Assembly (NCBI RefSeq): GCF_029223525.1
Contig: NZ_JARHTQ010000043.1
Location: 1-52,018 of the forward strand
Source of the DNA: Streptantibioticus ferralitis
GTDB taxonomy: Bacteria > Actinomycetota > Actinomycetes > Streptomycetales > Streptomycetaceae
Reading direction: 5' to 3'
DNA length: 52,018 nt
Position 1 is the stretch's first letter. Each line of letters opens with the position of its first letter. This document shows positions 5,063 through 27,779 of the stretch, piece after piece. The position numbers and the translations under genes are program-made. The notes under the pieces are model-generated. The model did no database searches and was not told the DNA's origin. It was given only the letters and a program-made list of their open reading frames with translations.

Positions 5063-5073
5063 TTAGAGTACAT

Positions 5074-5084: not shown

Positions 5085-5230
5085 CTTCTTTGCTGCTCGG
5101 CGCGGGGCTGCAGCTGCCCGGGGGCGAGTGGCCCCGTCAGATCGCCTGCGTGTACGTTCCCGGAGGCGCAGAGCCTCTTGTTGAAGCGGTAACTCGGTTG
5201 TCAGCCAAGCGGCATGGGGGGATTGAGTAC

Positions 5231-5815: not shown

Positions 5816-5863
5816 CCGGCCTGCAAGCCGGGCTCTCGGCTCACTCCAGCAGCGCTCCCCGCA

Positions 5864-5910
5864 TGACGAGGCCGCCCCTGAACCTGCACGGTTCAGGGGC
5901 GGCCTCGTCA
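5864..5910. terminator. Strong terminator hairpin
   Basis: A perfect 21-bp stem (5864-5884 with 5890-5910) and a 5-nt loop follow the acetyltransferase. About 150 bp of apparently empty sequence separates it from the converging gene ending at 6063. Confidence 0.85.
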
Positions 5911-6062
5911 CTTCCAGTGGTCGGCCGCTCCCCTGTTTCCGTGCTGTCGGCACGTTTGGACCATGCCCAGCGCGGTGGCAGCTGACCGTTTGATCGAGGT
6001 GTTACGGCCTCAGATGGAGACAGAAGCCGAAAGCGTGGGCGCCGGTGGGATCGGACGCCGGT

Positions 6063-6971: not shown

Positions 6972-7014
6972 GAGTCGTTTCCCCCTCCTCGGCCCGCAAG
7001 GGGCCATAAACCGT

Positions 7015-7776
7015 TCACGATGGCTGCCCGGCCGCGGGCACGGGGACGTCGTAGAGGACGTCCCAGCGCTCAGGGGGCACCACGATGTCCGCGGTCTCCA
7101 CCGCGCGCCCGCTGGTGTCGTAGTAGGTGCGGGCGATCAACAGCGCCTGCGATCCCGTGGGCAGCCCCAGCACCTGCGCCTGGTCCTCATCGAGATGGAT
7201 CGGCCGCGGCACTTCGACCACCCGGGCGACCGTGATGCCGATGTGCGCCATACGGGCCACCACCCCGCGTCCGGCCAGCGGTCCGCCCTCGGGCAGGACG
7301 ATGACGGTGCGGTCGGTGACGGCCATCGGCTCCCAGCTGGTGATCAGCATGACGGGCTGCCGGTTGGCCAGGACCTCGTAGGCGGTGCGGACGCACAGGT
7401 CGTCGGTGGCGATGCCCAGACGGGAGGCGATGTCCGATGGTGCCGGGACCTTGGCGATGCTGTTGGCCTCCCAGGTGCCGTCGAAACCGGCGGGGAGCAG
7501 GCCCGGGGTGCGGTGAGTCTCGGTGCGCAGCATGGTGCGGCGCTCGTAGGTGGCGCGCACGTAGGTGCCCGAGCCGGCCCGGCCTTCCAGCAGGCCCTCA
7601 GCGGTCAGGATCTCCTGAGCACGCCGGATGATGTTCTCCCCGACACCCAGCTCAGCACCCAGGGTTCCGCGCGAGGGGAGCCGGTACCCGGCGGGCCAGG
7701 TGCCGTCGGCGATCCGCTCACGGAACGTGCTGGCGACTCGCAGGTAGGCCGAGGATCGTGACGTGCCGTCAGCCAT
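7015..7776 (-). CDS. GntR family regulator with UTRA domain
   Basis: The N-terminal winged helix (about residues 8-75; LRVASTFRERIADGTW, then GTLGAELGVGENIIRRAQEIL) is followed by a UTRA ligand-binding domain (about 85-250) as in the HutC/KorSA subfamily. The ATG at 7776 has GAGGAGAGG just upstream; longer frames start inside the operator. Family members repress target promoters until a small ligand binds the UTRA domain. Two CTAGTSACTAG palindromes overlap its own promoter (TAGATT as -10) and the divergent promoter for 7884/8132. A third copy sits in the desaturase/acetyltransferase promoter, making it the likely regulator of the whole 4-9 kb block. Confidence 0.85.
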   Translation of the reverse strand: MADGTSRSSAYLRVASTFRERIADGTWPAGYRLPSRGTLGAELGVGENIIRRAQEILTAEGLLEGRAGSGTYVRATYERRTMLRTETHRTPGLLPAGFDGTWEANSIAKVPAPSDIASRLGIATDDLCVRTAYEVLANRQPVMLITSWEPMAVTDRTVIVLPEGGPLAGRGVVARMAHIGITVARVVEVPRPIHLDEDQAQVLGLPTGSQALLIARTYYDTSGRAVETADIVVPPERWDVLYDVPVPAAGQPS

Positions 7777-7811
7777 GCCTCTCCTCGCCCACGGGTGCTG
7801 ACCTGTACCGA

Positions 7812-7849
7812 TTGACAATCTAGTCACTAGGCTAAGATCTAGTGACTAG
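7812..7849. promoter_or_regulatory. Divergent promoter with paired GntR operators
   Basis: Two palindromes, CTAGTCACTAG (7820-7830) and CTAGTGACTAG (7839-7849), lie 19 bp apart centre to centre, about two helical turns, so dimers would bind the same face. TTGACA at 7812-7817 is a likely -35 for the rightward genes. TAGATT on the other strand is a likely -10 for gntR. Confidence 0.65.
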
Positions 7850-7883
7850 AACCACTGTCAGTAGCTAGGTCGATCGGGGTGCA

Positions 7884-8135
7884 GTGGCCTACGACCGCCA
7901 GATCGCCATCGCCCACTCGGCGACCGCGCAGCTCACCGCTCTGGGCGCTGAGCCCCGCGTCATCACCGAGGACGGCTCCATCCGGATCGAGGCCACCGTG
8001 ACCGCGGACCTCATCCGCCACTGGTCGAGCCTGCTCACGATCCTCTACATGGGCAGCGACTTCGGCCTGGCCGACACCGAGGACGGGCAAATCGCCTGGC
8101 TACGCGTTGAATTGGGAGACGGCACCCACCCATGA
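7884..8135 (+). CDS. Hypothetical 83-aa protein coupled to epimerase
   Basis: A short acidic protein starting at the GTG at 7884 (MAYDRQIAIAHSATAQL) with a compact alpha/beta look. Its stop overlaps the start of the next gene (ATGA at 8132), so the two are translated together. No motif is recognised. It is the first gene downstream of the GntR-controlled promoter. It could be a small partner of the epimerase or an unrelated plasmid protein. Confidence 0.6.
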   Translation: MAYDRQIAIAHSATAQLTALGAEPRVITEDGSIRIEATVTADLIRHWSSLLTILYMGSDFGLADTEDGQIAWLRVELGDGTHP

Positions 8136-9019
8136 CCCACCGCATCGAGCGCCGGATAGCCCAGCCCTTCGCCAAGGGCCACGGCGCCAAAAACGACTTC
8201 ATCATCCTGCCCGACCCCGACAGCCGCCTCGCGCTCTCCGCGGCCGACGTAGTACGCCTGTGCGACCGACGCGCGGGCATCGGCGCCGACGGCATCCTGC
8301 GCGCCGTGCGCTGCGCCGCCGACTCCGAAGCCGCAGCGGCGGGGACCAGCGCCGAGTGGTTCATGGACTACCGCAACGCCGACGGCAGCAAAGGCGCGAT
8401 GTGCGGCAACGGCCTGCGCGTTCTCGCCCGCTACCTGGTCGACAGCGGCCTGTGCCCACCCGGCCCCCTCACCATCGCAACCCGCGCCGGAACCCGCCAG
8501 ACCTATGTCCCCACCCGTAGCGATGAGTTCGAAGGCGATGTCACCGTCCTGATGGGCCGACCCAGCATGCCCGGCCCCGACACCATCGAGGTCGCCATCG
8601 CACAACGCCGCTGGCCCGCCGTGCACGTGGACATGGGCAACCCCCACGCCGTCGTCTTCGTCGACGACCTGGCCCACGCAGGCGACCTGCACACCTCTCC
8701 CACGGTGACACCCGCTGACGCCTACCCCGCAGGCGTCACCGTCGAGTTCGTCACCACCCACACGCCCCGCCACCTCGCACTGCGCGTCCACGAACGGGGC
8801 GTCGGAGAAACACGTGCATGCGGAACCGGCGCCTGCGCCGCCGTCGCCGCCGCTTTGCACGGAACACAACAAACTGGCACCACCTACTACACCGTGGACC
8901 TCCCCGGCGGCCGACTGCGCATAGCGGTGCGTGCTGACGGGACCATGGAACTGAATGGCCCTGCAGAGATCGTCGCTCAAGGCACCGTCCACCTCAGTGC
9001 CTGTGCGATGTCTGGGTGA
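8132..9019 (+). CDS. Diaminopimelate-epimerase family protein
   Basis: The 295-aa protein has the full DapF fold signature: AKGHGAKNDF near the N-terminus, MCGNGLRVLARYL with the first catalytic Cys at position 91, MGNPHAVVFVDD in the middle, and ETRACGTGACAA with the second catalytic Cys at about 230. The cofactor-independent two-base mechanism therefore looks intact. Housekeeping DapF converts LL- to meso-diaminopimelate for lysine and peptidoglycan. A plasmid copy beside a regulator, desaturase and acetyltransferase may be a specialised amino-acid epimerase instead. Translationally coupled to the 83-aa gene. Calling it dapF would overstate what can be seen. Confidence 0.85.
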   Translation: MTHRIERRIAQPFAKGHGAKNDFIILPDPDSRLALSAADVVRLCDRRAGIGADGILRAVRCAADSEAAAAGTSAEWFMDYRNADGSKGAMCGNGLRVLARYLVDSGLCPPGPLTIATRAGTRQTYVPTRSDEFEGDVTVLMGRPSMPGPDTIEVAIAQRRWPAVHVDMGNPHAVVFVDDLAHAGDLHTSPTVTPADAYPAGVTVEFVTTHTPRHLALRVHERGVGETRACGTGACAAVAAALHGTQQTGTTYYTVDLPGGRLRIAVRADGTMELNGPAEIVAQGTVHLSACAMSG

Positions 9020-9088
9020 TCGTGTGCGGTGCTGTGGTGCTGTGTCGGGCGTTCCGCTTGGCTCCGGTGCGGGCGCGGGGGAAGGACT

Positions 9089-10081
9089 TCAAGATTCGTC
9101 GTCTTCCGCGGCCAGCTCGTCTCCGGAGCGCCGAGCGATCTTCTTCACCGTCCCTTGCAAGGCCTGCAACAGCTCCCGCTCGGCCTCCTCGGTCCTGAAC
9201 GAGATGTTCCACTGCCGGACGTCGTCGACCAGGCCCTCGATCGCCTCGTCGAGCCGCTGGCGTAGCAGGCCGGGACTGAGGGCTTCGACCTCAACCGCGA
9301 TGTGCGGGTCGATGCCCTCGCGCAGGCACTCCTCCCGGTAGCGCCGGAAGTTGACGTCGGCCGTATTCACGTCGTGGGTGGTGAACTGGCCGGAGCGGAC
9401 ATCGTCTGCGGTAACCGCGATCTGCTGGAAGTCCAGGTCGACCCCGCCGTTGCCGTAGCGTCCGATGCGCTCAACCACCGATCGGGGTACGGCTCTCCCA
9501 GTCGGATCCCAATCACCAGCGAAGATGACAGTGACACCTCTGCCCTGCCGGGCGTACTCCTCCACGGCCTCGTAGACGAAGGTCTTCGAGGACTGTCCGC
9601 GGCACGAGTACAGGCCCACGCCCCAAGCGGAGGTGATCGGCTGGAGGACGCCGGCGACAGAGTCGCTCTCGCACCAGACCTCGACCCGCTGGCTCTGCGA
9701 GGCCCACAGATTCCGCCGGTAGCTCTCCGTCATGCGCGCCATGGCGTCCTCAAGCGAGTCGTACTGAACCTCCTGCCGCACCATGCGGGTGCCGTCGGTG
9801 ATCCACTCCCACGGCATCATCCCGTGCTCCCGCATGTAGCCGAGCTCACGGACGGGCACCGAGTAGTTCCGGCGCGAACCGGCGGTGTCCTTGGGCCACA
9901 GAACCCCGATCCCCAGGTAGTACACGTGGCGCACGCTGCACGGTTGGGCCGCTTCCGTGATCGAGTACAGCGCGGCACGCAAGGCTTCTACCTGTGCTTT
10001 CGTGCGCCGCGGCCGTTTTGTAGAGCTAGCGCCGTAACTCACATTCCCAGTGAACGCCTCGGCGAGCGTCTCCGTCACCAT
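9089..10081 (-). CDS. Topoisomerase VI A/Toprim-like protein
   Basis: The ATG at 10081 gives a 330-aa protein; the 82 residues upstream are Arg-rich noise. The N-terminal part (PCSVRHVYYLGIG) resembles the winged-helix region of Topo VI A/Spo11-like proteins, though the tyrosine assignment is uncertain. The middle has a Toprim-like acidic pattern: VWCESDSVAGVL (glutamate of strand 1) and FAGDWDPTGRAV (DxD-like pair) at about residues 165-225. Such domains bind Mg2+ and act in DNA cleavage, joining or primer synthesis. It is the last gene of the replication operon (9-16 kb). It might help resolve replication intermediates; no ATPase B subunit is present. Confidence 0.6.
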   Translation of the reverse strand: MVTETLAEAFTGNVSYGASSTKRPRRTKAQVEALRAALYSITEAAQPCSVRHVYYLGIGVLWPKDTAGSRRNYSVPVRELGYMREHGMMPWEWITDGTRMVRQEVQYDSLEDAMARMTESYRRNLWASQSQRVEVWCESDSVAGVLQPITSAWGVGLYSCRGQSSKTFVYEAVEEYARQGRGVTVIFAGDWDPTGRAVPRSVVERIGRYGNGGVDLDFQQIAVTADDVRSGQFTTHDVNTADVNFRRYREECLREGIDPHIAVEVEALSPGLLRQRLDEAIEGLVDDVRQWNISFRTEEAERELLQALQGTVKKIARRSGDELAAEDDES

Positions 10082-13126: not shown

Positions 13127-14509
13127 TCACGCAGTCATGGCCATGTCGGCGAACATCGAATAGTGCAACAACGCCGCAGCTGTGATCGTGGTCGTCGGAC
13201 CGTTGCGGTGCTTGGCGACGATCAGGTCGGCTTCGCCGGAGCGGGCGGACTCCTTGTCGTAGGCGTCTTCACGATGCAAAAGGATCACCAGGTCGGCGTC
13301 CTGCTCGATGCTGCCGCTCTCGCGCAGGTCAGAGAGCATCGGCCGTTTGTCCGCGCGCTGTTCGGGGCCGCGGTTGAGCTGCGAGAGCACCACGACAGGG
13401 ACGTTGAGTTCCTTGGCCAGCAGCTTCAACGAGCGGGACATCTCTGAGACTTCGACCTGCCGGTTTTCCGTCTTGCGTCCGGTGGTCATCAGCTGGAGGT
13501 AGTCGATGACGACCAGGTCCAGGCCGCTGCGCTGCTGCAACCTCCGGCACTTGGCCTTGATCTCCATGACCGTGGTGTTCGCCGTGGTGTCCAGATACAG
13601 CGGCGCGTCGGCGATGCGGTGGGTGACCTTGGCAATGCGCTGCCAGTCGTCCGGGCTGGGGTTGCCGGACGTCAGGTGATGCAGTCCGACCCGAGCCTCG
13701 GCCGAGGTGAGCCGGTTCATCAGCTCGGCCTCGCCCATCTCCAGCGAGAAGACCGCCGCAGGGCGGTCGTGCTTGATGGCGCAGGCGCGGGCGAAGTCGA
13801 GGGCGAGTGTGGACTTGCCCATGGCGGGGCGGGCCGCGACGACGATCATCTGGCCGGGGTGGAGCCCGTTGGTAAGCGTGTCCAGGTCGCTCAGGCCAGT
13901 CGGGACCCCCTTGGCCGCGCCGTGCTTTTGCAGGTACTCCAGCCGGTCGATGTAGTCGGCGTACCGGTCGCCGACGCGCACGGTGGCCGAGTCCTCGCGC
14001 AGCTGGATGGCGTTGTGCAGCTCGGCGCCAGCGGCGTCGAGGATCTCGCTCACCTCGCCGTCGGCGGCGTATCCCATCTGGGTGATCCGGGTGCCAGCCT
14101 CCACCAGGCGGCGCAGCTTGGCCCGGTCGGCGACGATCTCGGCGTAGTACTCGGCGTTCGCGGCGGTGGGCACCGCGTTCACGAGGGTGTGCAGGTAGGC
14201 AGCGCCACCGACGCGGTTGATCTGACCGCGCTTGGTCAGCTCGGCCGCGGCCGTGATCGGGTCAGCTGGCTCGCCCTGGGCGTACAGGTCGAGGATCGTG
14301 TCGAAGATGGTCTCGTGGGCGGGCCGGTAGAAGTCACTGCTCTGCAGGACCTCGACGACGTCGCCGATGACGTCCTTGCTCAGCAACATCCCGCCCAGGA
14401 CCGACTGTTCGGCGTCCAGGTCCTGCGGTGGGATCCGCTGGAAAGTGGCGGGACCCTTCGGCTCTTCACCGTCGAACGGCGGGGTCGGGGTCGGTACGGT
14501 GGTGCTCAT
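13127..14509 (-). CDS. dnaB: Replicative DNA helicase DnaB
   Basis: A full-length 460-aa DnaB. The N-terminal primase-interaction domain (PPQDLDAEQSVLGGMLLSKD) is followed by a RecA-like domain with Walker A (ARPAMGKSTLALDFARA, about residues 235-251), Walker B (DLVVIDYLQLM), and the later motifs SQLNRGPEQR and DLRESGSIEQDAD. It forms the hexameric ring that unwinds DNA 5' to 3' ahead of the fork. In Streptomyces linear plasmids such as pSLA2 and pSCL1 a DnaB-like protein (Rep2) is encoded just after the initiator, the arrangement seen here. It is separated from the initiator by a hairpin (14546-14577). A plasmid-borne copy may be loaded by the initiator at the internal origin. Confidence 0.93.
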   Translation of the reverse strand: MSTTVPTPTPPFDGEEPKGPATFQRIPPQDLDAEQSVLGGMLLSKDVIGDVVEVLQSSDFYRPAHETIFDTILDLYAQGEPADPITAAAELTKRGQINRVGGAAYLHTLVNAVPTAANAEYYAEIVADRAKLRRLVEAGTRITQMGYAADGEVSEILDAAGAELHNAIQLREDSATVRVGDRYADYIDRLEYLQKHGAAKGVPTGLSDLDTLTNGLHPGQMIVVAARPAMGKSTLALDFARACAIKHDRPAAVFSLEMGEAELMNRLTSAEARVGLHHLTSGNPSPDDWQRIAKVTHRIADAPLYLDTTANTTVMEIKAKCRRLQQRSGLDLVVIDYLQLMTTGRKTENRQVEVSEMSRSLKLLAKELNVPVVVLSQLNRGPEQRADKRPMLSDLRESGSIEQDADLVILLHREDAYDKESARSGEADLIVAKHRNGPTTTITAAALLHYSMFADMAMTA

Positions 14510-17966: not shown

Positions 17967-18542
17967 TCAGCCGAGCAACTCGGCCAGGGGCGTGTCGTCC
18001 TCCTCGTGGTGGAGGAAGCGTTCTCGCGCGGCGCTGTCGACCTTTCGCATGGTGGATCGGGCCGCGCCTAAGGCGCTGTACAAGCCGTCCAACACCGCGT
18101 CTCCTTCGTCGAGTTGGGCTGTGACGCCGCGCGAACTCGTTCGCCAGGAGCCGTCGAGGGCGTGCTTGACGGCCATGTCGTGCAGCACGGCGGCGAGGTC
18201 ATCGAGCGCGGTGCGCACTGCCTTGACCTCGGCAGAGGTGTAGTGGGCGTCCGCGAGATACGGCCTGGTCATGACGTTCCTCGGTGGTGTGATGTCGTTG
18301 GGAGATGTTTTGCTCAGGTCCTCCAGCAAGGGGTTCCATTCGCGGCCACCGGTGGGCGGTCGTAGCCAGGCACGTTGCCGTTGACGGGGGTCGTCGCCGG
18401 GGAACCGGAGCGCCATCACCTCGCCCCATTGACCGAGCCGGCAGTCGTAGACGACGGCATAGAGCCGAAGCCATCCAGCAGCGTCGAACGCGCGGCACGT
18501 CGCGGTGCTCACCGGTCCCACCTGGTCGTGTTCGGCCGTCAT
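17967..18542 (-). CDS. Hypothetical 191-aa protein
   Basis: The ATG at 18542 is used; the frame opens two codons earlier at a TTG. The N-terminal half (RAFDAAGWLRLYAVVYDC, then WLRPPTGGREWNPL) looks like a small beta-rich domain. The second half (SAEVKAVRTALDDLAAVLHDM) is helical and ends acidic. A possible internal restart at 18273 (MTRPYLADAHY) has GAGGAA upstream, so two proteins or two overlapping products are conceivable. It converges with the gene at 17024. No family recognised. Confidence 0.6.
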   Translation of the reverse strand: MTAEHDQVGPVSTATCRAFDAAGWLRLYAVVYDCRLGQWGEVMALRFPGDDPRQRQRAWLRPPTGGREWNPLLEDLSKTSPNDITPPRNVMTRPYLADAHYTSAEVKAVRTALDDLAAVLHDMAVKHALDGSWRTSSRGVTAQLDEGDAVLDGLYSALGAARSTMRKVDSAARERFLHHEEDDTPLAELLG

Positions 18543-18711
18543 CTTCAATCCAGCAGCTCAGGGGCAATTCAGGGCACTATCAGCCTGGTCGACGGGGCAC
18601 TTTGGCGGAATGTCCTACCCCCGCCCCAGTACTGAACTTTCACTGAACTACGCGGCCTCACCTGGGCCTCTGCCCGGTTCGGGGCTCCCAGCAGATGCCA
18701 GACTGGCCCGC

Positions 18712-19488
18712 ATGGCGACTTTGAATGGCGCGCCGGTCGAACTCGAAGACCTCAAGGCGCTGGCACTGGTCAATTACGGGCATTTCACTTCCATGCGCAT
18801 CGATGACGGCCACGTACGCGGGCTGTCGCTCCACATGGACCGACTTGTTCGGGACTGCCGAGCGGTCTTCGATGTCGGTCTGGACCCGGATCGTGTCCTC
18901 CGATTCGCCCGGCAGGCCGTCGGCGGGAAGACCGGATCGTTCGTGGTGCGCGTCACGATCTTCGACCCGGCACTAGAGATGGGACACCCGGGATCCGACG
19001 CCGAGCCGCAGATCCTGGTGACCACCCGCCCGGCCGGGGCGATGCCGCCTCCCCCGATGCGGGTGCGCTCCTTCCCGTTCGCCCGCGACTCGGCAGCCAT
19101 CAAGCACACCGGTCTGTTCTCCCAGTTGCGATTGCGGCGGCAGGCGCAGCGTGAAGGCTTCGACGATGCGCTGTTTGCCGATACTCACGGCGTGATCTCA
19201 GAGGGGGGCACCTGGAACGTCGCCTTCTATGACGGCACCGATGTCATCTGGCCCACGGCGGATGTCCTTCCCGGGGTGACGATGCATCTCCTCCAGCAGG
19301 CTCACGAGTCGGTAACCGCCCCGGTGACCCTGGACATGCTGCCCCGGATGCAGGCGGCGTTCGCCACCAACACCTCTATCGGAGTCCGACCTATCAGCGC
19401 CATCGACGGCCAGGCGCTCAACGCTGGCCACTACATCCTCACCGAACTCCAGCAGCAGTATCTGCAGATCCCCGGCGAGGAGCTCTAG
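18712..19488 (+). CDS. Class IV aminotransferase-like protein
   Basis: The 258-aa protein matches the fold-type IV PLP enzymes (branched-chain aminotransferase, D-amino-acid aminotransferase, aminodeoxychorismate lyase). AAIKHTGLFSQL contains the likely PLP-binding lysine. ALFADTHGVISEGGTWNVAF has the conserved glutamate of the ExGTxN-type motif. GVTMHLLQQAH and TNTSIGVRPISAIDG follow in the usual order. The ATG at 18712 gives a normal N-terminus. It starts a plus-strand block with the HTH-FGE gene, next to the biosynthetic-looking operon at 22-27.7 kb, and may supply an amine precursor there. That link is inference. Confidence 0.8.
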   Translation: MATLNGAPVELEDLKALALVNYGHFTSMRIDDGHVRGLSLHMDRLVRDCRAVFDVGLDPDRVLRFARQAVGGKTGSFVVRVTIFDPALEMGHPGSDAEPQILVTTRPAGAMPPPPMRVRSFPFARDSAAIKHTGLFSQLRLRRQAQREGFDDALFADTHGVISEGGTWNVAFYDGTDVIWPTADVLPGVTMHLLQQAHESVTAPVTLDMLPRMQAAFATNTSIGVRPISAIDGQALNAGHYILTELQQQYLQIPGEEL

Positions 19489-19564: not shown

Positions 19565-20518
19565 GTGGCCCTGGTAGTCCGGTGGACCGGTCGCGAGATC
19601 AAAGCGCTTCGCGAGGCGAAACGCATGACTCTCGTTGATTTTGCAGAACAAATGTGTGTCAGCCCACGAATGGTGTCGAAGTGGGAAGCAGGCGGCCAGA
19701 AGATCGAACCCCGCGCCGTCAATCAGCAGGCGCTTGACACCCTGCTCGCCTGCTCCCCCGCTGACGTGCAAGGCCGGTTCGCTGCGCTGACTACCCCGCC
19801 CCCAGTTGACATCCCCGGCCAGCGCCCCGATACCGATGCCGTGCCAGCAGAAGCGCAGCACGTGCGGCACCCCGCCGACGGGAAGATGACGGCCAAGATC
19901 CCTGCCGGGATCTACCTCAGCGGCACCGAGAACGAACCGCTGTGGGTCGAGGCCTACTACATCGATGTGTTCCCAACCACCAACGCCGACTACGCCCGAT
20001 TCACGGCGGCAACAGGACACCCGGCACCCCGCCACTGGGAGAACGGTCGCTGCCCATCCAACCTCTACGACCATCCCGTGGTCTGGGTCATGCACGACGA
20101 CGCAGCCGCCTACGCGGCCTGGGCCGGCAAGCAACTGCCGACCACGCAGCAATGGGAGAAGGCAGCCAGGGGCACCAACGGCGCCGTCTACCCGTGGGGA
20201 GACGGCGCAACGGTTGCCAAGGGAAACTTCCGCGAGTCCGGAATCCGTGCCACGACACCAGTCGGCCGCTACCACAGCGGCGTCAGCCCCTACGGCGTCT
20301 ACGACCTGTGTGGCAACGCCTGGGAATGGTGCTCCACCGAAACCACGCCTGGCCGCTACGAACTCAAGGGGTCGGCATTTACCAGTCCCTTCTTCCGCTC
20401 CGCGCCATCCACGTTTAACGACGCCGACCGGCGCATGTACGACGACGACACCGGCTTCCGCTGCGTCGCCACCGTCGAGGACGTTGAGAAGCTGGTAGGG
20501 GAAGCCGCAGGGCGCTGA
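19565..20518 (+). CDS. HTH-regulator fused to FGE-like (sulfatase-modifying) domain
   Basis: The 317-aa protein starts at the GTG at 19565 with GGAGGAG upstream. Residues 6-55 form an XRE-type helix-turn-helix (ALREAKRMTLVDFAEQM, then VSPRMVSKWEAGG). From about residue 110 there is a formylglycine-generating-enzyme-type domain: IPAGIYLSGTENEP, PTTNADYARFTAATG, QLPTTQQWEKAARG, VYDLCGNAWEW and DDTGFRC. FGE-fold domains oxidise cysteines, or in relatives such as EgtB make C-S bonds, or serve only for binding. The DNA-binding fusion suggests a sensor-regulator instead of a stand-alone enzyme. Just downstream of the aminotransferase and convergent with the regulator at 20589. Confidence 0.8.
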   Translation: MALVVRWTGREIKALREAKRMTLVDFAEQMCVSPRMVSKWEAGGQKIEPRAVNQQALDTLLACSPADVQGRFAALTTPPPVDIPGQRPDTDAVPAEAQHVRHPADGKMTAKIPAGIYLSGTENEPLWVEAYYIDVFPTTNADYARFTAATGHPAPRHWENGRCPSNLYDHPVVWVMHDDAAAYAAWAGKQLPTTQQWEKAARGTNGAVYPWGDGATVAKGNFRESGIRATTPVGRYHSGVSPYGVYDLCGNAWEWCSTETTPGRYELKGSAFTSPFFRSAPSTFNDADRRMYDDDTGFRCVATVEDVEKLVGEAAGR

Positions 20519-20588: not shown

Positions 20589-21758
20589 TCACCTGCTCCC
20601 GTACCGGGCGGTGTTGTCCAGGCGGGTGGTGAAGCCGCCCGCGCTGTCGCGGGTGAGCAGCAGCAGCGGCTCGGCGGAGGTGAGGTCAGGGGTGTCGGTG
20701 ATGCCGCCGATCTTGCGGGTAGCGGTGACGGCGATGAGGTCGCCGACGGGGGCGAGGTCGCCCAGGTAGGCGGTGTTGCGCTGGCCGCGTTCGCCGTTGA
20801 GGAGGCATTTGGCGGCGCCGAGGACGCCGAGGGTCAGGCAGCCGCCGAGCAGGACGACGGTGGTGCCCTGGTCGAGGGTGAGGCGAGTGATGACGGTCAG
20901 ATCCGCCAGCAACTCGCCCTCCGGTGCCCAGCTCGGGGCCAGACGGACGTCGCCGTGGCCGGGGAAGGTGATGGCGGCGTCCGGGGGCGGGGTGAAGCGA
21001 CAGGGCAGGTGCGGGCCGAACTCGGCATAGACGGCGTTGCGGTGCGGGGCGCCGAGCACGATCAGGCAGTCGGGGTCGGCGTTGTAGTACTCGCCGGGGT
21101 AGAAGTCGCGGATGATCGCGGCGGGGAACGCCTGGGCGAGCCGGACGCGAACGTAGAACAGGGCGTCGAGGTCGGCGAAGCCGGCGTACCTGGCGTACAG
21201 CGGTTCCGCTGGCCGCTGCCGGTCGGCGCCCTTGGGGAGGGTGGAGCAGACCACGTGCACGTTGGCGGTGCCGGTGATGCCGAAGAACCGAACCGCCCCG
21301 TCGGTCGGGGCCAAGGTGGCAGGGGCGGGTGCGTCGTCGGCCGACAGGGGCCGTTCGGTCAGGTAGCTGCCGTCGGAGATGAGCAGGGCGAGGGTGTCCA
21401 GAGCTTGTCCAGCGTGGCGGCGCACGGTCTTGGCCGAGCAGACCAGCACCCGGGCGAGGGATTCCTGCCGTTCGGTGAGGGTGGGCCAGGAGTGCTCCGG
21501 CAGCAGGTTGAAGTCGGCGGCGGCGTAGTGGCGTTCGTGCGGGCTTAACGCGTCGATCGCTCGGCGCAGAGCCGCTACCAGGCGCGTTGTCTCGCTTGCC
21601 GCGTGGGACAGCGGCGGCTGGCGGGCCAGCAGCAGCGCGCGGAGCTGGTCGCTCAGAGCCGTCACGGCTCCGGGGTGGCCGAGGGCGGGGCCCTGGCGCA
21701 GCCGCAGCAGCTCGGTGCGTACGTCCTCGGGCGCGAGCCGGGGTGGGGGGATGGCCAT
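20589..21758 (-). CDS. Regulator-like protein divergent from the polyproline operon
   Basis: The ATG at 21758 (MAIPPPRLAPEDV) gives 389 aa; the 99 codons before it are Arg/Pro-rich noise crossing the divergent promoter. The first 160 residues are helical and contain an HTH-like stretch (ERQESLARVLVCSAKTVRRHAG). The C-terminal domain has strands and loops with motifs FADLDALFYVRVRLAQAFP, RDFYPGEYYNADPDCLIVLG and TTVVLLGGCLTLGVLGA. These look like a small-molecule (possibly nucleotide) binding fold, but I cannot name it. Its head-to-head position, 117 bp from the 21876 peptide gene, suggests that it senses a metabolite and controls the operon. Confidence 0.6.
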   Translation of the reverse strand: MAIPPPRLAPEDVRTELLRLRQGPALGHPGAVTALSDQLRALLLARQPPLSHAASETTRLVAALRRAIDALSPHERHYAAADFNLLPEHSWPTLTERQESLARVLVCSAKTVRRHAGQALDTLALLISDGSYLTERPLSADDAPAPATLAPTDGAVRFFGITGTANVHVVCSTLPKGADRQRPAEPLYARYAGFADLDALFYVRVRLAQAFPAAIIRDFYPGEYYNADPDCLIVLGAPHRNAVYAEFGPHLPCRFTPPPDAAITFPGHGDVRLAPSWAPEGELLADLTVITRLTLDQGTTVVLLGGCLTLGVLGAAKCLLNGERGQRNTAYLGDLAPVGDLIAVTATRKIGGITDTPDLTSAEPLLLLTRDSAGGFTTRLDNTARYGSR

Positions 21759-21875
21759 ATGTCCAAGCGTTGTCCACCGGGCGGGATCTGTCCGGGTTTT
21801 GGGGCGGCTGACGGGATGTCGTCCCGGTGGCGACGGCGGCGATGGTGGCAGTCCCTTCTCGCCTTGGAGGTACAG

Positions 21876-21992
21876 ATGCCCGCCGCAGTCGTACCGGCTC
21901 CCAGTTGGGGGCCGCAGCCCCCGCCCCCTCCTCCGCCGCCTCCTCCGGCCCCGCCGGTCCCCCAGCCGCCTCCCCCTGGCGGCGGCTCCTGA
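21876..21992 (+). CDS. 38-aa polyproline peptide heading the operon
   Basis: The ATG at 21876 has a textbook ribosome site (TTGGAGG, 6 bp spacing). The peptide starts MPAAVVPAPSWGPQ, continues with ten consecutive prolines, then APPVPQ, four more prolines and GGGS before TGA. Ten prolines in a row strongly stall ribosomes unless EF-P assists. Two readings are open: a leader peptide for attenuation, since a strong hairpin follows 11 bp after the stop, or a precursor/scaffold peptide for the enzymes encoded downstream. The Pro codons are mixed (CCC, CCG, CCT), so selection is on the peptide, not on a simple DNA repeat. It is too short to be called with certainty, but start, frame and context are convincing. 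Confidence 0.65.
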   Translation: MPAAVVPAPSWGPQPPPPPPPPPPAPPVPQPPPPGGGS

Positions 21993-22003
21993 CCGCCGCC
22001 CCC

Positions 22004-22029
22004 GGTGCCGGACCCCTCGGTCCGGCGCC
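22004..22029 (+). promoter_or_regulatory. Hairpin between polyproline ORF and operon (attenuator candidate)
   Basis: An 11-bp GC-rich stem (22004-22014 with 22019-22029, one G-T pair) and a 4-nt loop begin 11 bp after the peptide stop and end 24 bp before the ribosome site of the first enzyme gene. There is no T-run, so it could act through Rho or by hiding the ribosome site region, relieved by ribosome stalling upstream. Confidence 0.5.
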
Positions 22030-22069
22030 GGGACCCGTCGCACACGCTTCGCCAAAGGAGAGATGGACT

Positions 22070-22927
22070 GTGAACGTACGCCCGGCCGCCGCGCTGGTGC
22101 TCAACCCCGATGAGCTCGGCCCCGATCCGGTGCCGGGGATGGACCTGGCGGTGAAGCTGGGGATCGGGCAGCTGGAGATCCGCTCGGCCGAGGGCGCCAA
22201 CGCGCTGATGCTGCCTGATGACCGGCTGAAGCACATCCGGGCCCTGGCCGACGAGCGTGGCCTTCAAGTGACGGCGCTGGCCTCGCCGTTGTGGAAGTGG
22301 TGCCGCCCCGAGGCTCGACCCGGGAGGGTGGACAGCTTCGCCTTCTCCACCCAGGTCCTGCCGGAGAAGCGGCTGGGGTGGGTGGAGCGGGCGATCAACG
22401 TCGCCGGGATCCTCGGCGCACCGATCGTGCGGGTCTTCTCCCACCTGCGGGTCGAGGAGGACCTGACGGAGCGGTTCGCCGGTGACCCGCTGCTGGCGAA
22501 GGCTCTGGAGGTGGCGAATCGGGCCGGGGTGCGGCTGCTGCTGGAGAACGAGCCAGTGTGCACCGTCGCGCACGCCGAACCGCTGCTGGAAGTCCTGGAG
22601 CGGTACCACGGGCAGGGACTTGGGCTGTGGCTGGATGTGGCGAACCTTCACGAGGTTGGCCAGGCCACACCCGAGGTGGTGCGGGCCCTGGCCCCGTACG
22701 TGGGATACGTGCATGTCAAGGACTACCGCCCCGTTGGGGGCGGGGGCCGGGCGTTCTGCCCGGCTGGGACGGGTGTTGTTCCGTACGGCGAGGTGCTGCC
22801 GCTGCTGCGCGCCGCGTGCCCTGTCCTGCCGTACGCGCTGGAGACCCACGTGCGCGTCACCCCAGCCGATGCGCTCGCCGCGGGGGCAGCCTTCCTGCGC
22901 TCGGCCGTGCCCGGGGGGCTGGCGTGA
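22070..22927 (+). CDS. TIM-barrel sugar isomerase/epimerase-like protein
   Basis: The 285-aa protein starts at the GTG at 22070 (AAAGGAGAG upstream). It is a xylose-isomerase-like TIM barrel (AP endonuclease family 2): MDLAVKLGIGQLEIR at strand 1, LLLENEPVCTV with a metal-binding Glu near residue 157, LWLDVANLHEVG with Asp near 187, YVHVKDYRP with His near 213, and YALETHVRV with Glu near 257. All four typical metal ligands are therefore present. Relatives isomerise or epimerise sugars, inositols or hydroxy-keto acids. It is the first enzyme of the coupled operon and overlaps the next gene (GTGA), so it probably forms a pathway with the Gfo/Idh oxidoreductase, a common pairing. Confidence 0.85.
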   Translation: MNVRPAAALVLNPDELGPDPVPGMDLAVKLGIGQLEIRSAEGANALMLPDDRLKHIRALADERGLQVTALASPLWKWCRPEARPGRVDSFAFSTQVLPEKRLGWVERAINVAGILGAPIVRVFSHLRVEEDLTERFAGDPLLAKALEVANRAGVRLLLENEPVCTVAHAEPLLEVLERYHGQGLGLWLDVANLHEVGQATPEVVRALAPYVGYVHVKDYRPVGGGGRAFCPAGTGVVPYGEVLPLLRAACPVLPYALETHVRVTPADALAAGAAFLRSAVPGGLA

Positions 22928-23859
22928 GGCGGGCGCTGCTGGTCGGAGCCGGGGAGGTCGGCGCCAAGCACGTGGCCGCCCTCGCGGGTGCCGACGCGCT
23001 GACCGTGGCCGGTATCGCCGATCCCTGCCCGCTCGCCGAACTGCCGCCGGGCATCCCGCTGTTCGCCTCATGGCGCTCGGCGCTGACCGCCCTGTGCCCG
23101 GACCTGGTGGTGGTGGCCGCCCCGCCCGGCACCGCGCTCACCGCTGCCCGGGACGCCGCCGCGGCCGGGGCCGCGGTACTGGTGGAGAAGCCCGCCACCA
23201 CCGAACCCGCCGCCCTGGCACCGCAGCCGGGCGATGAGCGGATCTTCGTGGCCTTCCAGCCGCACTTCGCCCCCGGCCTGGACGAGTTGCTCACATGGCC
23301 CCCGGTCATCGAGCGGGCGGAGGTGGTACTGGCAGTGCGGCGTGATGCGGGCTACTTCCGCGACTGGCGTCGCACCTACGCCACCGCTGGCGGGGTGCTG
23401 CACCAGCAGGCCATTCACGGCCTGTCCTTGGCTCTGCGGTTGATGCCCGGCGACGCCCGGACCGTGGACGCCACGGTCGTCCACCGGCGGGGCTTGGCCG
23501 AGACCGAGGACCACGTCACTGCCGAGCTGCTGCTGACCGGCGGGCGGACGGTGCGCATCGACGCCCGCGTCGACCACCCCGGGCCGCCCCGCCACCACCT
23601 CGTGCTCCACCTCGCCGACGGGCGGCGGCTGCCGGTGCGCGGCCGGAACCTCGAAGCCGGACTCGGCGACCCCGGCGACGCCCCAACGCACGAGCGGCTG
23701 CGGCGCCGGATGTACGCGGCGGTGCTCGACGCCGTCGCCGAAGGCCCCATTCATCCTTGCCTGTTCCCGCTGTCGGCGCTGCGGCGCCCGCTGGAGGTGA
23801 TCGACCGTGTCTACCGCGACGCACGCCGCATCCGGGCAGCGCACCCCGCTGCCGCATGA
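22924..23859 (+). CDS. Gfo/Idh/MocA-type oxidoreductase
   Basis: The 311-aa protein starts at a GTG overlapping the previous stop. It has an N-terminal Rossmann fold (LLVGAGEVGAKHVAAL, residues 5-20), the family's EKP motif (VEKPATT near 86) and a catalytic-type segment GGVLHQQAIHGLSLAL near residue 160, where His/Gln replace the more usual Asp-Gly-His set. Such enzymes oxidise or reduce sugar or inositol hydroxyls with NAD(P). The C-terminal end overlaps the next gene by 53 bp. The TIM-barrel/Gfo-Idh pair suggests a cyclitol or sugar-acid substrate. Confidence 0.85.
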   Translation: MRRALLVGAGEVGAKHVAALAGADALTVAGIADPCPLAELPPGIPLFASWRSALTALCPDLVVVAAPPGTALTAARDAAAAGAAVLVEKPATTEPAALAPQPGDERIFVAFQPHFAPGLDELLTWPPVIERAEVVLAVRRDAGYFRDWRRTYATAGGVLHQQAIHGLSLALRLMPGDARTVDATVVHRRGLAETEDHVTAELLLTGGRTVRIDARVDHPGPPRHHLVLHLADGRRLPVRGRNLEAGLGDPGDAPTHERLRRRMYAAVLDAVAEGPIHPCLFPLSALRRPLEVIDRVYRDARRIRAAHPAAA

Positions 23860-25033
23860 ACTGGCCGTCGAGGTCGTCGAGCGCAAGGGCGTCGGCCATC
23901 CCGACACCCTCGCCGATGGCATCGCCGAGCTCGCCTCCATCCGCTACAGCCGGCACTGCCTGGACGTGGCGGGGGCGGTGCTGCACCACAACCTGGACAA
24001 GGTCGCCGTCCTGGGCGGCCGGGCCGCCTTCACCGACACCGACGGCGTCTACGACCGGCCGCTGCGCGTCATCTTCGGCGGCCGGATCTCCACATCGTTC
24101 GCCGGACGGCCGCTGCTGGTGCGGGAGATCCTTGAGCAGGCCGCCGTCGACCACCTGCGCGCCGCCCTGCCCGGGTTCGACCGGGTCCGGCTGGAGATCC
24201 GGCACCAGACCACCGACTCCAGCAAGTTTCCCCACTGGTTCGCCCCACGCTCGCTCGACGATCTTCCCGAGCGATCCCGGGCCTTCTCCAACGACACCGC
24301 CTACCTCGTCGGCTCCGCCCCGCGCACGGCCGCGGAGACCATGGTGCTGCTGGCTGAAGCCTGGTTCCGCCGCCAGGCGTGGGCGGGCAGCGACATCAAG
24401 GCCCTCGCCGTCCGAGACGGCAAGGACTGGACAGTGACAGTGTGCGTGCCCGCGCTCGCCGGGCACCTGGCCACCTCGGCCGCGTTCGACGACGTGGTCA
24501 CCGCCTCCGCCCGCGAGCTGACCAGCGTGCTTGCCCACCGGCTGCCGGGCCGGGTTCAGATGGTGTGCAACACCCGGGGCAGCCGCACCGGCCCCATCTC
24601 CGCGCAGTACTTCACGCTGTCCGGATCCGCCGTCGACTACGGCGAGGACGGCCTGGTCGGGCGGGGCAACGCCCGCATCGGGGTGATCAACGGCGCCCAT
24701 CTGGCGGGCAACGAGGCGACGTTCGGGAAGAACCCGGCCTACCACGTCGGCAAGGTCGGCGGCTGGCTCGCCGACATGGCAGCCCGCGCGGTCGCCGAAG
24801 AGTTTGGACCCTGCCGGGTCGGGTTGCTGTGGCGCAACGGCGCGGCGTACGACCAGCCCGCCTCCATCGAGATCACCACCGCGAACGAGGCGCCGACCGG
24901 TCAGGCCGAGGAGCTGGTGCGTGCCACCCTGGCCCGCACCGACTGGCTCGATGATCTGCTCAGCGGCCGGTACCTGCCCAAGGTCGAGGCGGTCGAGGAT
25001 CTGCTGGCCGACCTCGACCAGGTGCCCAGATGA
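23807..25033 (+). CDS. Archaeal-type S-adenosylmethionine synthetase
   Basis: The 408-aa protein starts at the GTG at 23807 (GGAGGTG upstream). It is the archaeal methionine adenosyltransferase family, not bacterial MetK: VVERKGVGHPDTLADGIAE near residue 25, GAVLHHNLDKVAVLGGR, FSNDTAYLVG, DYGEDGLVGRGNARIG and NEATFGKNPAYHVGK follow in the archaeal order. The reaction is ATP plus methionine to S-adenosylmethionine, PPi and Pi, or the same on an analogue. The host must have its own MetK, so this copy is dedicated to the operon, perhaps for a modified substrate. No methyltransferase is visible in the operon, which raises the question of how the SAM is used. ATGA-coupled to the next gene. Confidence 0.88.
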   Translation: MSTATHAASGQRTPLPHELAVEVVERKGVGHPDTLADGIAELASIRYSRHCLDVAGAVLHHNLDKVAVLGGRAAFTDTDGVYDRPLRVIFGGRISTSFAGRPLLVREILEQAAVDHLRAALPGFDRVRLEIRHQTTDSSKFPHWFAPRSLDDLPERSRAFSNDTAYLVGSAPRTAAETMVLLAEAWFRRQAWAGSDIKALAVRDGKDWTVTVCVPALAGHLATSAAFDDVVTASARELTSVLAHRLPGRVQMVCNTRGSRTGPISAQYFTLSGSAVDYGEDGLVGRGNARIGVINGAHLAGNEATFGKNPAYHVGKVGGWLADMAARAVAEEFGPCRVGLLWRNGAAYDQPASIEITTANEAPTGQAEELVRATLARTDWLDDLLSGRYLPKVEAVEDLLADLDQVPR

Positions 25034-25914
25034 CGGCGCACAGGATCGTCACCGGCCATATCTCGGCTGTCCTCGCCCTGCTGCCTGAAGAGCTGGACAC
25101 CACGGCCGCCCGGACGGCTGGCCGGGCCCTGCCCGGCGGCTGGCACCTGGAGCCGTCCGGCACCGGCCTGGAGAGGGCGGCTGTCGAGATCACCGTCGGG
25201 GCGGCGGGCGTTAGCGCCGACGCGCACACGGTGCGCGTCCGGCTGCCCCGCACCGCCGCAAGTTCGGACACCCTGGCGTACGTCACCTACACCGCGCTGG
25301 AACGCGCCCGCCAGCAGCAGCGCAAGGCCACCGTCCACGCCACCGCCTTGCACGCGCCCGGCGGGCGGGCGGTGCTGCTGCTCGGCACTAAGGGCGCGGG
25401 CAAGACCAGTACCGCGCTCGCGCTCGCCGAGCGCGGCTGGGTCCACGCCGGGGACGACCTGGTGGTCCTCGAAGGCGACGAAGTCCAGGCGGTGACGGTG
25501 TGGCCGGGCAAGCCCACCGCCGCCATCCGGGACCCGCTCCGGCCGCTGGCCCCCAAGCCCCAGCGTGACCTTGAGCCCTTCGCCGCAGGCCCGGCCCGGC
25601 TGGTGTGGGTCGTGCGCATCGCCATCCATCCCAGCCTGGCCACGGCGTCGTTGACGCCCGCGAAGCCGCTGTCGGTGAACGAACGGCTGCGGCTGCACGA
25701 GAACCTGGGCCGCTACATCTCCGGCCTGCCCACCCCGCTGAGCGGTGAGGGCTCGGTGCCGTACGGGCCGGTGTGGCCACTGGACACGCCCGCCTTGGCT
25801 CGCTGGCGCAGCCACCTCATCACCGCGCTCGGCGGCTGCCGGTTCGACTACCTGTACGCCTCCAGCCCCGAGACGGCCGCTGACCTGCTGGCCAAGGAGG
25901 CTGATGCTCGATGA
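25030..25914 (+). CDS. HprK-like P-loop kinase
   Basis: The 294-aa protein has a poorly conserved N-terminal domain and a C-terminal P-loop: LLGTKGAGKTSTALALAERG at about residues 116-135, followed by GWVHAGDDLVVLEGDE. The GDDxV pattern after the P-loop is typical of HPr kinase-related proteins. True HprK phosphorylates a serine of HPr; related proteins in secondary-metabolite and RiPP loci phosphorylate peptides or small molecules. No HPr is nearby, so the substrate may be the polyproline peptide's Ser, a sugar or an intermediate. It is coupled on both sides (ATGA at 25030 and 25911). Confidence 0.78.
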   Translation: MTAHRIVTGHISAVLALLPEELDTTAARTAGRALPGGWHLEPSGTGLERAAVEITVGAAGVSADAHTVRVRLPRTAASSDTLAYVTYTALERARQQQRKATVHATALHAPGGRAVLLLGTKGAGKTSTALALAERGWVHAGDDLVVLEGDEVQAVTVWPGKPTAAIRDPLRPLAPKPQRDLEPFAAGPARLVWVVRIAIHPSLATASLTPAKPLSVNERLRLHENLGRYISGLPTPLSGEGSVPYGPVWPLDTPALARWRSHLITALGGCRFDYLYASSPETAADLLAKEADAR

Positions 25915-26966
25915 ACCTCGCCGTGATCCTCCCCAGCCGCAACGAGCCGGCCACCATCTCCGCCGTCGCCGCCGCGGTGGGCTCCGCCCTGGACAGTGCA
26001 CGGGCGGTCATCGTCCACGCCGACTCCTCCGACACCCCGGACACCGCCAAGCACTTCGCCGCCACAGTCACCCGCGCGGCGAAGCTCTCGCTGACTCATC
26101 TGGTGCGGGGCAAGGGCGCCCAGATCCTGGCGGCCGCCCGCCGCCCCGAGGTCGCCCGTGCCGAGGCAGTGCTGATCGCCGACACCGACACCCGCAACCC
26201 CGACCCGGCTGTCTACCGCGCGCTGCTGGACTCCGTACGGGCCGGGGCGGCCCTGGCGATCGCCGACTACCCGCGCCACTGGGACGAAGCCAACCTCACC
26301 AACCACCTCGCCCGGCCGCTGATCGCCGCGATCACCGGCCACGACGTGCCCCAGCCCCTGGCCGGAGACCTCGCCGTATCCCACGAGACCATGACCGCCG
26401 CCCTCCGGGCCGTCGAGACGCTGCCCACCGAGCTGCCGGGGTGCGTGGACGGCTACGGCATCGACGTCTTCCTGCTACTGACCGCCGCCCGCCTCGGCCC
26501 CGTGGCCTCCGTACGGCTGGAGAAGCCCAAGCTGCACGCCGGGTCCTTCCCCCACCTGCCGGCCATCTACCACCAAGCCGTCCCCGTGCTGCTGCACCTG
26601 ACCGCCGCCTGGAGCCCGCCGCCCGCACCGCGCGGCCTCGGTCCGGCGCTCTACCGGGTCGCCGACCGCGAGCTTGACCCTGCCCGTCATCAGGCCATGC
26701 TGACTACGCTGTACGACCTCACCGGGCCCCCTGGCGGATACGATGAACGTTCCTGGCCGCTACCCGCCGCGGACGCCTGGCACGCCGTCAACTCCGGTAC
26801 CCCGGCACCCGATGCGGCCCGCCAGCTGTGGCCGCACTACACCCGCCGCGTCCTCGACTGGCTCACCAGCGGACAGCACGCCACCACACGGCAGCGGGCC
26901 CAGGTGCTCGCCGCCGCACACGCCCACCTGCACACCGCCGTTCTCACCCCCGCAGGAGCCCCGTGA
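25911..26966 (+). CDS. GpgS-like glycosyltransferase
   Basis: The 351-aa protein begins with a GT-A fold (LAVILPSRNEPATISAVAAA). It has a DxD-type metal site (LIADTDTRNPDPAVY near residue 90) and GDLAVSHETM plus GYGIDVFLLLTAARLG, the order seen in glucosyl-3-phosphoglycerate synthases (GT81) and related GT2 enzymes. These transfer a sugar from an NDP-sugar to a small acid such as 3-phosphoglycerate. The last 100 residues are helical and unassigned. It overlaps its neighbours by 4 and 1 bp. A small phospho-acid acceptor would fit the CofE-like ligase that follows, but this is inference. Confidence 0.8.
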   Translation: MNLAVILPSRNEPATISAVAAAVGSALDSARAVIVHADSSDTPDTAKHFAATVTRAAKLSLTHLVRGKGAQILAAARRPEVARAEAVLIADTDTRNPDPAVYRALLDSVRAGAALAIADYPRHWDEANLTNHLARPLIAAITGHDVPQPLAGDLAVSHETMTAALRAVETLPTELPGCVDGYGIDVFLLLTAARLGPVASVRLEKPKLHAGSFPHLPAIYHQAVPVLLHLTAAWSPPPAPRGLGPALYRVADRELDPARHQAMLTTLYDLTGPPGGYDERSWPLPAADAWHAVNSGTPAPDAARQLWPHYTRRVLDWLTSGQHATTRQRAQVLAAAHAHLHTAVLTPAGAP

Positions 26967-27694
26967 TGACCGCCGCCTCCACCTCCGGATTCTCCGCCTT
27001 CGCCCTGGAACCCTTCCCTGAGCTCCATATGGGCGACGACCTGGGCGGCACCATCACCGACATCCTCACGAACACGGGCACCGAACTACAGGACGGCGAC
27101 ATCATCGTTGTCGCGAGCAAGCTGGTGTCCATCGCGGAGAAGCGCTACGTCGACCTGGCCAGCGTCACCCCCACCCCCGAGGCCGTGGAGATCTCGGCCC
27201 GCACCGGCAAGCCTGCCGAGGTGGTGCAGCTGATCCTCGACCACTCGATCTCACACTTCCTAGCCACCGAGCGGGGCCCCATCATCGCCCGGCACACCCT
27301 CGGCTACCAGCTGACTTCCGCAGGGATCGACCGCGCTGGGACCGAGGGCGCGTGGCTGCTGCCCGTGGACCCGGATGCCTCCGCCCGGGCGCTGCGCGAC
27401 GCCCTGATCACCTACACCGGCGCGAACGTGGCCGTGGTCATCGCGGACTCCGACGGCCGTGCCGACCGGCGCGGGGCGACCGTCATCTCCATCGGCGCGG
27501 CAGGGGTAGCCCCGCTGCGGATCACAGAGCACGGTGGCAAGCGGCAGGAGGAGACCTTCACCGACCTGATCGCCGCCGCCGCCGGGATCATCCTGGGCCA
27601 GCGTGGACGCGGCGCCCCCGTCGCTGTGCTGCGCGGCATCAACTACACAGCCAGCGACGGGGGCGTGGGCGCGATGCTTCACCACCGGCCGTGA
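26966..27694 (+). CDS. CofE-like (F420-0:glutamyl ligase family) protein
   Basis: The 242-aa protein is the CofE family: DILTNTGTELQDGDIIVVASKLVS near the N-terminus, ERGPIIARHTLGYQLTSAGID, VVIADSDGRADRRGATVISIG and GAPVAVLRGINYTAS in order. CofE joins L-glutamate to the lactate carboxylate of F420-0 using GTP. No CofC, CofD or FbiC genes accompany it, so it probably joins glutamate or another amine to a different acid made by this operon. The ATG at 26966 shares a base with the previous stop; a GTG one codon upstream is also possible. It is the last gene of the operon. Confidence 0.82.
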   Translation: MTAASTSGFSAFALEPFPELHMGDDLGGTITDILTNTGTELQDGDIIVVASKLVSIAEKRYVDLASVTPTPEAVEISARTGKPAEVVQLILDHSISHFLATERGPIIARHTLGYQLTSAGIDRAGTEGAWLLPVDPDASARALRDALITYTGANVAVVIADSDGRADRRGATVISIGAAGVAPLRITEHGGKRQEETFTDLIAAAAGIILGQRGRGAPVAVLRGINYTASDGGVGAMLHHRP

Positions 27695-27779
27695 CCTGGC
27701 TGATCACCGGGGGCGCGGACGGTGCGGGCCCGACCCCGTGCCCGGGAGGGGGTTCAACCGAGCACGGGGAGACAGAGAG

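Follow-up and report, generated by a model that had tools for sequence, protein, structure and literature searches.

In a stretch of 52,018 nucleotides from Streptantibioticus ferralitis (contig NZ_JARHTQ010000043.1, hereafter the window), six genes occupy positions 22070 to 27694 of the + strand, all neighbours overlapping (by 4, 53, 4, 4 and 1 bases in succession), with a 38-codon polyproline open reading frame (ORF) upstream of them. Their products resemble, in order, a TIM-barrel sugar isomerase, a Gfo/Idh oxidoreductase, an archaeal-type methionine adenosyltransferase (MAT), an HprK-like kinase, a GpgS-like glycosyltransferase and a CofE-like ligase. Our analysis leads us, with modest confidence, to regard this as a mobile biosynthetic operon with sugar- or cyclitol-acid chemistry, in which the polyproline ORF acts as a cis-acting leader in Streptomycetaceae. 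The initial annotation of this region had named a divergent gene, a polyproline peptide and six overlapping genes, and all of them were present. Its inventory was right for the six genes but had missed the short-chain dehydrogenase/reductase (SDR) and AroE-like genes, the hairpins and the occurrence on plasmids.

Lack of conserved synteny had been named beforehand as one outcome that would speak against the proposal; the synteny proved to be conserved. A MAT query against 84,980 species genomes gave 22 loci, and the six genes were found in order in 15 of them (L031, L032, L034, L036-L044, L048, L050 and L052; the kinase of L034 was matched over residues 67-294 only). Four further loci end at contig edges (L033, L035, L045 and L051) and two hold partial sets (L047 and L049). 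In the remaining one, L046 (Streptomyces griseofuscus, 3530-10053), the Gfo/Idh gene was split by an insertion into pieces about 5.6 kb apart; the polyproline ORF was also degraded there, leaving a Pro-rich remnant before the TIM-barrel gene in which no start was seen. Other genera and families kept the gene order, with proteins 51-88% identical. The genera represented among the 22 loci were Streptomyces, Actinacidiphila, Salinispora, Sphaerimonospora, Nocardia, Pseudonocardia, a Frankia bin and Saccharopolyspora, and the 15 complete loci cover five families. There are fewer independent cases than loci, because L031 and L032 match alike and the pairs L036/L038 and L042/L043 are near-copies.

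The operon was found in a minority of genomes. MAT of this kind (E up to 0.001) was present in 37 of 297 Streptomycetaceae genomes, six of which, the window's included, reached at least 67% identity. The TIM-barrel gene was detected in 8 of 394 Streptomycetaceae genomes, again including the window's, and an order-wide draw of 391 genomes returned it once, in the window's own genome. Furthermore, a related CofE (E up to 1e-40) was carried by 9 of 72,556 plasmid records, all from Streptomyces. Three of these nine bore the six-gene set, namely NBC_01601 (L081), NBC_00708 plasmid 1 and NBC_01304; in the other six, CofE was solitary, in two unannotated pieces or amid other genes. We conclude that the operon has spread horizontally, partly via plasmids. 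In the window itself, DnaB-like helicase and FtsK/SpoIIIE-type genes (13127-14509 and 44817-46901) flank the region, which suggests plasmid or integrative-element DNA. Two of the CofE-bearing records were seen in other surroundings. On one plasmid (L082, 7205-19753), CofE lies beside peptide deformylase, glutamate--tRNA ligase, Gfo/Idh, phosphotransferase and AP-endonuclease-like genes, and the tRNA ligase or the deformylase could be self-protection genes. On a Streptomyces plasmid (L084, 10001-10685), an unannotated two-piece cofE match sits just past a lasso-peptide cluster with asparagine synthase, B2 protein and ABC transporter genes.

The family assignments of the initial annotation held in outline when Pfam and structure profiles were applied. 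The TIM barrel matched PF01261 with 80.7 bits (cut-off 31.1); its nearest solved structure by profile was Art22 (8z1i, 4e-10), which occurs in none of the papers listed by one literature search. Its predicted model (predicted local distance difference test, pLDDT, 93) gave the 3-epimerase UlaE (3cqj) as the top Foldseek match, and E161, D189, H215 and E258, which we take to form the metal site, were invariant in 19/19 aligned sequences. The MAT reached 199.4 bits for PF01941 (cut-off 27), narrowly missed the equivalog NF003362 (472.2 vs 481) and aligned with the structure profile 6s81 over positions 14-369 (E 2.5e-70). From PF01941 together with the match to a solved MAT, it is assigned as an archaeal-type methionine adenosyltransferase that is predicted to make S-adenosylmethionine (SAM). 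A search of its genome with this MAT gave no other match at E up to 0.001. That genome also encodes a normal MetK, in keeping with the dedicated role proposed for this MAT at the outset, and elongation factor P (EF-P).

The three remaining enzymes were assigned less closely. The kinase scored 21.9 for Hpr_kinase_C (PF07475) and did not reach the gathering score of 33.3. However, the HprK profile 1jb1 matched it at 6.2e-5, and its P-loop residues G124, K125 and T126 as well as H103 were invariant in 19/19 aligned sequences. Foldseek related its model (pLDDT 88.8) to PEPCK and HprK with probability 1.00, but the template-modelling scores among the 50 matches listed were only 0.27-0.50 by query and 0.28-0.57 by target. 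The glycosyltransferase shares with GpgS the GT-A domain and a DTD motif (D91 and T92 invariant in 21/21 aligned) and matched the GpgS-family profile 3ckj over positions 3-191 (E 2.7e-9), while its C-terminal half matched little; it scored 18 for PF00535 (cut-off 23.3) and differs from GpgS in reaching only 42.7 bits of the 262 set for the equivalog PRK13915. Similarly, the CofE-like protein has the PF01996 domain of CofE (170.5 bits, cut-off 25) and matches the CofE structures 7uld (1.6e-40), 2phn and 2g9i, but it stays under the equivalog score of TIGR01916 (166.1 vs 180.65). GpgS- and CofE-like activities, which had been read from the families, therefore do not follow for these two proteins, both being under the curated equivalog cut-offs. 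The alignments left out L032 (the same as L031) and the near-copies L038 and L043. Their coverage was 19/22 for A1 (kinase, also without the partial L034), 21/23 for A2, 20/22 for A3, 23/25 for A4, 19/23 for A5 (also without the cut L035 and L045), 20/23 for A6 (Gfo/Idh, also without the split L046 and the L058 gene) and seven of nine AroE loci for A7 (without L043 and L056, which has a stop in the called frame).

Elsewhere the operon extends further than in the window. There, cofE and an SDR gene overlap at the cofE stop, and AroE-like genes are placed behind cofE or SDR; among 25 loci searched, SDR was matched in 10 and AroE in 9, though SDR is broken in L040 and L046, and L051 has its SDR, a distant copy, at another place in the locus. 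On the plasmid of NBC_01601 (L081), eight genes are consecutive, SDR and AroE-like included, and in the window copy SDR is reduced to a stub. The AroE-like proteins reached the equivalog NF001311 (287.1 in L031 and 286.7 in L048, cut-off 235). In 7/7 aligned, Ala stands at the first serine position of SxS, presumably the shikimate-binding motif of AroE, and the other AroE of the genome has Ser; an altered substrate of the cluster AroE is plausible from this substitution. The window's own genome holds a decayed second cofE-aroE pair (G000:C28, L070:9149-9848), in which cofE codons 1-34 are joined directly to codons 208-240 and followed by a frameshifted aroE with 55-79% identity by piece to the L031 gene.

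Taken together, these families allow a chemistry to be proposed. The TIM barrel and Gfo/Idh enzymes, with SDR and AroE where present, would isomerise and oxidise or reduce an acid derived from a sugar or cyclitol. Phosphorylation or glycosylation of that acid would fall to the kinase and the GpgS-like transferase, and the CofE-like ligase would form an amide at its carboxylate. SAM, or a nucleoside like it, would come from the MAT and be used in a step with an unrecognised enzyme. As the initial annotation had said, no methyltransferase or transporter was recognised among the six genes by Pfam and NCBIfam, and no methyltransferase was annotated in the stretches of L081, L083 and L087 shown, where the gene table is incomplete. 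We infer that the product may be an amidated sugar or cyclitol acid that also carries a phosphate or glycosyl group; the earlier "glycosylated, amino-acid-linked product" was likewise inferred. In three actinobacterial clusters (L058, L059 and L064), a MAT with 37-44% identity has a TIM barrel, an oxidoreductase and a gene of P-loop or kinase-like type in its vicinity. No polyproline ORF was found in them, and L059 and L064 are without CofE. In L059 (8185-13450), GT2, MAT, TIM barrel, Gfo/Idh and a P-loop protein just under the cut-off are consecutive. In L064 (8204-16518), inositol-phosphate synthase, MAT, a weakly matching TIM barrel, APH and HprK-like genes are followed by SDR and aminotransferase genes seen by eye, a run that by its gene content looks like an aminocyclitol pathway. 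The gene sets of L059 and L064 support a link between such MATs and sugar or cyclitol chemistry. L058 (910-13193) appears as a divergent version of the pathway, with CofE 74% and AroE 65% identical and TIM, kinase, glycosyltransferase and MAT 31-38% identical; genes for a cyclase and an M16 peptidase are additionally present, as is a GNAT-like gene that scores below cut-off.

The same enzymes could be viewed as a stress or supply operon, in which the MAT raises SAM and the others serve the synthesis or turnover of a primary metabolite resembling F420 or glucosylglycerate. The CofE and GpgS families are known from cofactor and osmolyte pathways, and with a normal MetK present the operon MAT would be an extra supply. 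However, the patchy distribution and the plasmid location do not suit such a role, and no F420 synthesis genes were annotated around the three full plasmid operons (L081, L083 and L087), for which the gene table is incomplete; in the window, this covered its identified genes. A second PF01996 gene elsewhere in the window's genome may, moreover, already serve F420. We consider this explanation improbable and retain that of a sugar- or cyclitol-acid pathway.

Upstream of the enzymes, the polyproline ORF was counted over 24 loci with DNA upstream of the TIM-barrel gene, L031 and L032 being counted as one; L033, L035, L043 and L045 (little DNA before the gene) and L047 and L049 (no TIM barrel found) were omitted. 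It was present in 13 of the 24 (the window, L031, L041, L042, L044, L048, L050, L052, L055, L056, L081, L083 and L087). After the pattern was set, it was seen in 3/3 full plasmid operons and in 0/2 further genomes inspected later (L076 and L078). The search pattern recovered a start codon and a ribosome site in 12 of the 13, the site of L087 failing it. Across 452,866 bases from 25 loci, there were 10 polyproline ORFs with ribosome sites, every one directly before the TIM-barrel gene; when the ribosome site was not demanded (888,696 bases, 45 sequences, duplicates included), the scan gave the ORFs before the TIM-barrel gene in the loci counted above as having one, and five weaker ones elsewhere. 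The window's genome has another Pro-rich short ORF away from the operon copies examined (L070:17054, - strand; 31 aa, GTG start). The peptides are 13 to 38 aa long with proline runs of 5-13. Between two pairs of ORFs, which share L050, 6 nonsynonymous codons were observed vs 11.0 expected and 5 vs 11.9 (2 and 0 of 2000 simulations as low), and two other pairs gave 4 vs 5.9 and 1 vs 2.8 (0.12 and 0.07). The polyproline ORF is real, and codon comparison points to selection on its reading frame in 2/4 pairs; its translation is predicted. On a TIM tree of 24 rows, the polyproline label needed three changes, shuffles averaging 8.2; most inner branches of this tree are weak (6/21 starred), L033 was labelled 'none' with only 156 bases before its TIM-barrel gene, and L078 was left out as the pattern required ATG.

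The ORF is followed by a hairpin. A long stem lies at or past the end of the ORF in 12/13 loci, and z was -3 or lower in 10/13. Folding the bases from the stop codon to the TIM-barrel gene gave z of -3.0 to -5.7 in 8/10 loci and -0.9 in L052 and L056, and a fold across the stop codon gave -4.4 in L052 and -3.4 in L083. In L042, L044 and L050, both sides were changed in 4/16 stem pairs, which 11 of 500 shuffles equalled. A proline run followed by a hairpin near the stop codon fits, by analogy, leader control. Ribosomes stall at polyproline runs unless EF-P helps. A ribosome passing the run fast would reach the stop beside or inside the hairpin and hold it open, and one stalled in the run would let the hairpin form, or the opposite direction may apply. 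Expression of the operon would then track the ease of polyproline synthesis, that is EF-P and charged and m1G37-modified tRNA-Pro.

Related systems have been described in other bacteria. In E. coli, a built PPPPPP run before a terminator or rut site made downstream expression dependent on EF-P (PMC5021804). The construct resembles the window in its run followed by a hairpin, and in it stalling decides read-through; it is, however, artificial and uses the pyrL intrinsic terminator, whereas the window's leader is natural, has no T-run and is putative in its action. In Salmonella, mgtL is likewise a short leader ORF that bears Pro codons and precedes a regulated gene, mgtA; its Pro codons read out tRNA m1G37, made by the SAM enzyme TrmD (PMC6335274). 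It differs in having Pro codons at 3, 5 and 7 and acting via Rho, whereas the window family has runs of 5-13 Pro ahead of a different operon, with a putative sensing role. A bolder version, which we regard as very improbable, would have the polyproline leader tie the MAT operon to SAM: low SAM would lead to less TrmD-made m1G37 on tRNA-Pro, the run of 5-13 Pro would become slow, the hairpin would switch and the operon would respond. The product would then derive from SAM or a SAM-like nucleoside and be phosphorylated, glycosylated and amidated.

Several observations weigh against a pathway operon with a polyproline leader. The ORF was absent from 11/24 loci (L034, L036-L040, L046, L051, L058, L076 and L078), the enzyme sets were kept without it, and 0/5 loci outside Streptomycetaceae have it, so that the initial view of a Pro-rich ORF as part of the conserved set everywhere had to be given up. 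Several peptides, that of L087 among them, share the C-terminal pattern P-x-P-x-PPPP, a recurrence that could point to a function of the peptide as such. The stems of L056 and L081 (13 and 15 pairs) gave z of only -1.6 with the fold across the stop; L052 reached -3 or lower only with the stop codon in the fold, a choice made post hoc; and in L087 the ORF is present but no clear hairpin follows it (z -1.4). No T-run followed the hairpins inspected, and thus they are not textbook intrinsic terminators. The substrates of the glycosyltransferase, kinase and CofE-like enzyme are not nameable, because their scores fall below the curated cut-offs. Finally, hairpins were found without the ORF in L076 and L078 (z -4.8 and -3.8). 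Such cases favour an action of ORF and hairpin as RNA only, as a C-rich Rho loading site or an element of mRNA processing, the peptide playing no part; the run is indeed C-rich and unstructured, and the ORF of L041 has merely 13 codons. However, Pro is kept while third codon positions vary, amino-acid changes are below expectation in 2/4 pairs, and 12/13 ORFs have a ribosome site and start codon, so we hold a role as RNA only to be unlikely.

A short peptide immediately upstream of enzymes is also what would be expected of the precursor of a ribosomally synthesized and post-translationally modified peptide (RiPP), which the kinase, glycosyltransferase and CofE-like ligase would decorate. RiPP operons often have a hairpin between precursor and enzymes, and in the divergent cluster L058 a gene for an M16 peptidase lies upstream. 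HprK-like kinases phosphorylate peptide Ser in paeninodin-like lasso and linear polyphosphorylated peptide (LPP) clusters (PMC13381572), which resemble the window in having such a kinase in a small cluster; they act on Ser together with a RiPP recognition element (RRE) and a peptidase, whereas neither was recognised in the window operon. Nor was an exporter recognised among the six genes. The peptide is missing in 11/24 enzyme loci, it has no common leader region or set length, and its last residue varies (S, A, R, L, V, H, D or G), hence there is no conserved Ser for the kinase. TIM, Gfo/Idh, AroE and MAT would be without evident role. A RiPP precursor was therefore rejected as first choice and appears distinctly improbable, and we read the ORF instead as encoding a leader peptide with ribosome stalling, by a presumed mechanism.

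Table 1. Features of the operon region in the window
Feature	Position	Strand	Basis or remark
Divergent regulator-like gene, 389 aa	20589..21758	-	ORF call; conserved in few loci
Polyproline short ORF, 38 aa, 21 Pro, run of 10	21876..21992	+	ribosome site GGAGG at 21866
Short hairpin across polyproline ORF stop codon	21978..22000	+	ViennaRNA fold
14-bp hairpin, 8 nt past polyproline stop	22001..22032	+	z = -3.0 vs 200 shuffles; no T-run after
TIM-barrel sugar isomerase/epimerase-like enzyme	22070..22927	+	PF01261
Gfo/Idh/MocA oxidoreductase	22924..23859	+	PF01408 and PF22725 above cut-off
Archaeal-type methionine adenosyltransferase (MAT), predicted	23807..25033	+	PF01941
HprK/PEPCK-like P-loop kinase	25030..25914	+	sub-threshold P-loop matches
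GT-A glycosyltransferase, GpgS-like	25911..26966	+	profile match, GpgS-family structure
CofE-like (F420-0:glutamate ligase family) enzyme	26966..27694	+	PF01996
SDR gene stub (seventh gene)	27691..27714	+	first 8 codons VTWLITGG, then divergent from VTWLITGASGEIG of L031

The divergent gene had no Pfam or NCBIfam match at E up to 0.1, and among L031-L064 it was matched only in L031, L032 and L053 (85%), which are the same or a near-identical locus, and in L048 (74%). The divergent gene upstream of the operon in L042 carries HTH_31, and that of L041 has no Pfam match. Rfam gave no match at E up to 1 in the window from 21500 to 22300 and none at gathering score in five whole loci, and a SAM riboswitch was rejected on these searches. 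A defence system was also rejected: PADLOC returned one weak kinase match (mad8, E 7e-4, residues 101-139) and none for the other six proteins. Further upstream in the window, a class IV aminotransferase gene (18505-19488; NF006734, 323.9 bits, cut-off 202) stands just before a gene (19565-20518) for a 317-aa protein that joins a helix-turn-helix and a formylglycine-generating-enzyme-like (FGE/EgtB-type) domain.

The claim of the initial annotation that no characterised pathway has this gene set agrees with our literature search, in which no matching publication was found among the titles and abstract starts listed, with subscription journals mostly outside coverage. The same partial coverage yielded no natural polyproline-hairpin leader before a biosynthetic operon, and to our knowledge polyproline stalling that decides read-through is known only as a built construct. 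We rate the operon as an undescribed orphan pathway and the leader as a variation on leader-peptide control. If the pathway reading is true, strains of at least five actinobacterial families would make an undescribed small molecule, and archaeal-type SAM synthetases would have a use in bacteria already equipped with MetK. Should the leader reading hold, it would be a natural case of polyproline read-through control and may provide a reporter for EF-P and the proline-tRNA state in Streptomyces.

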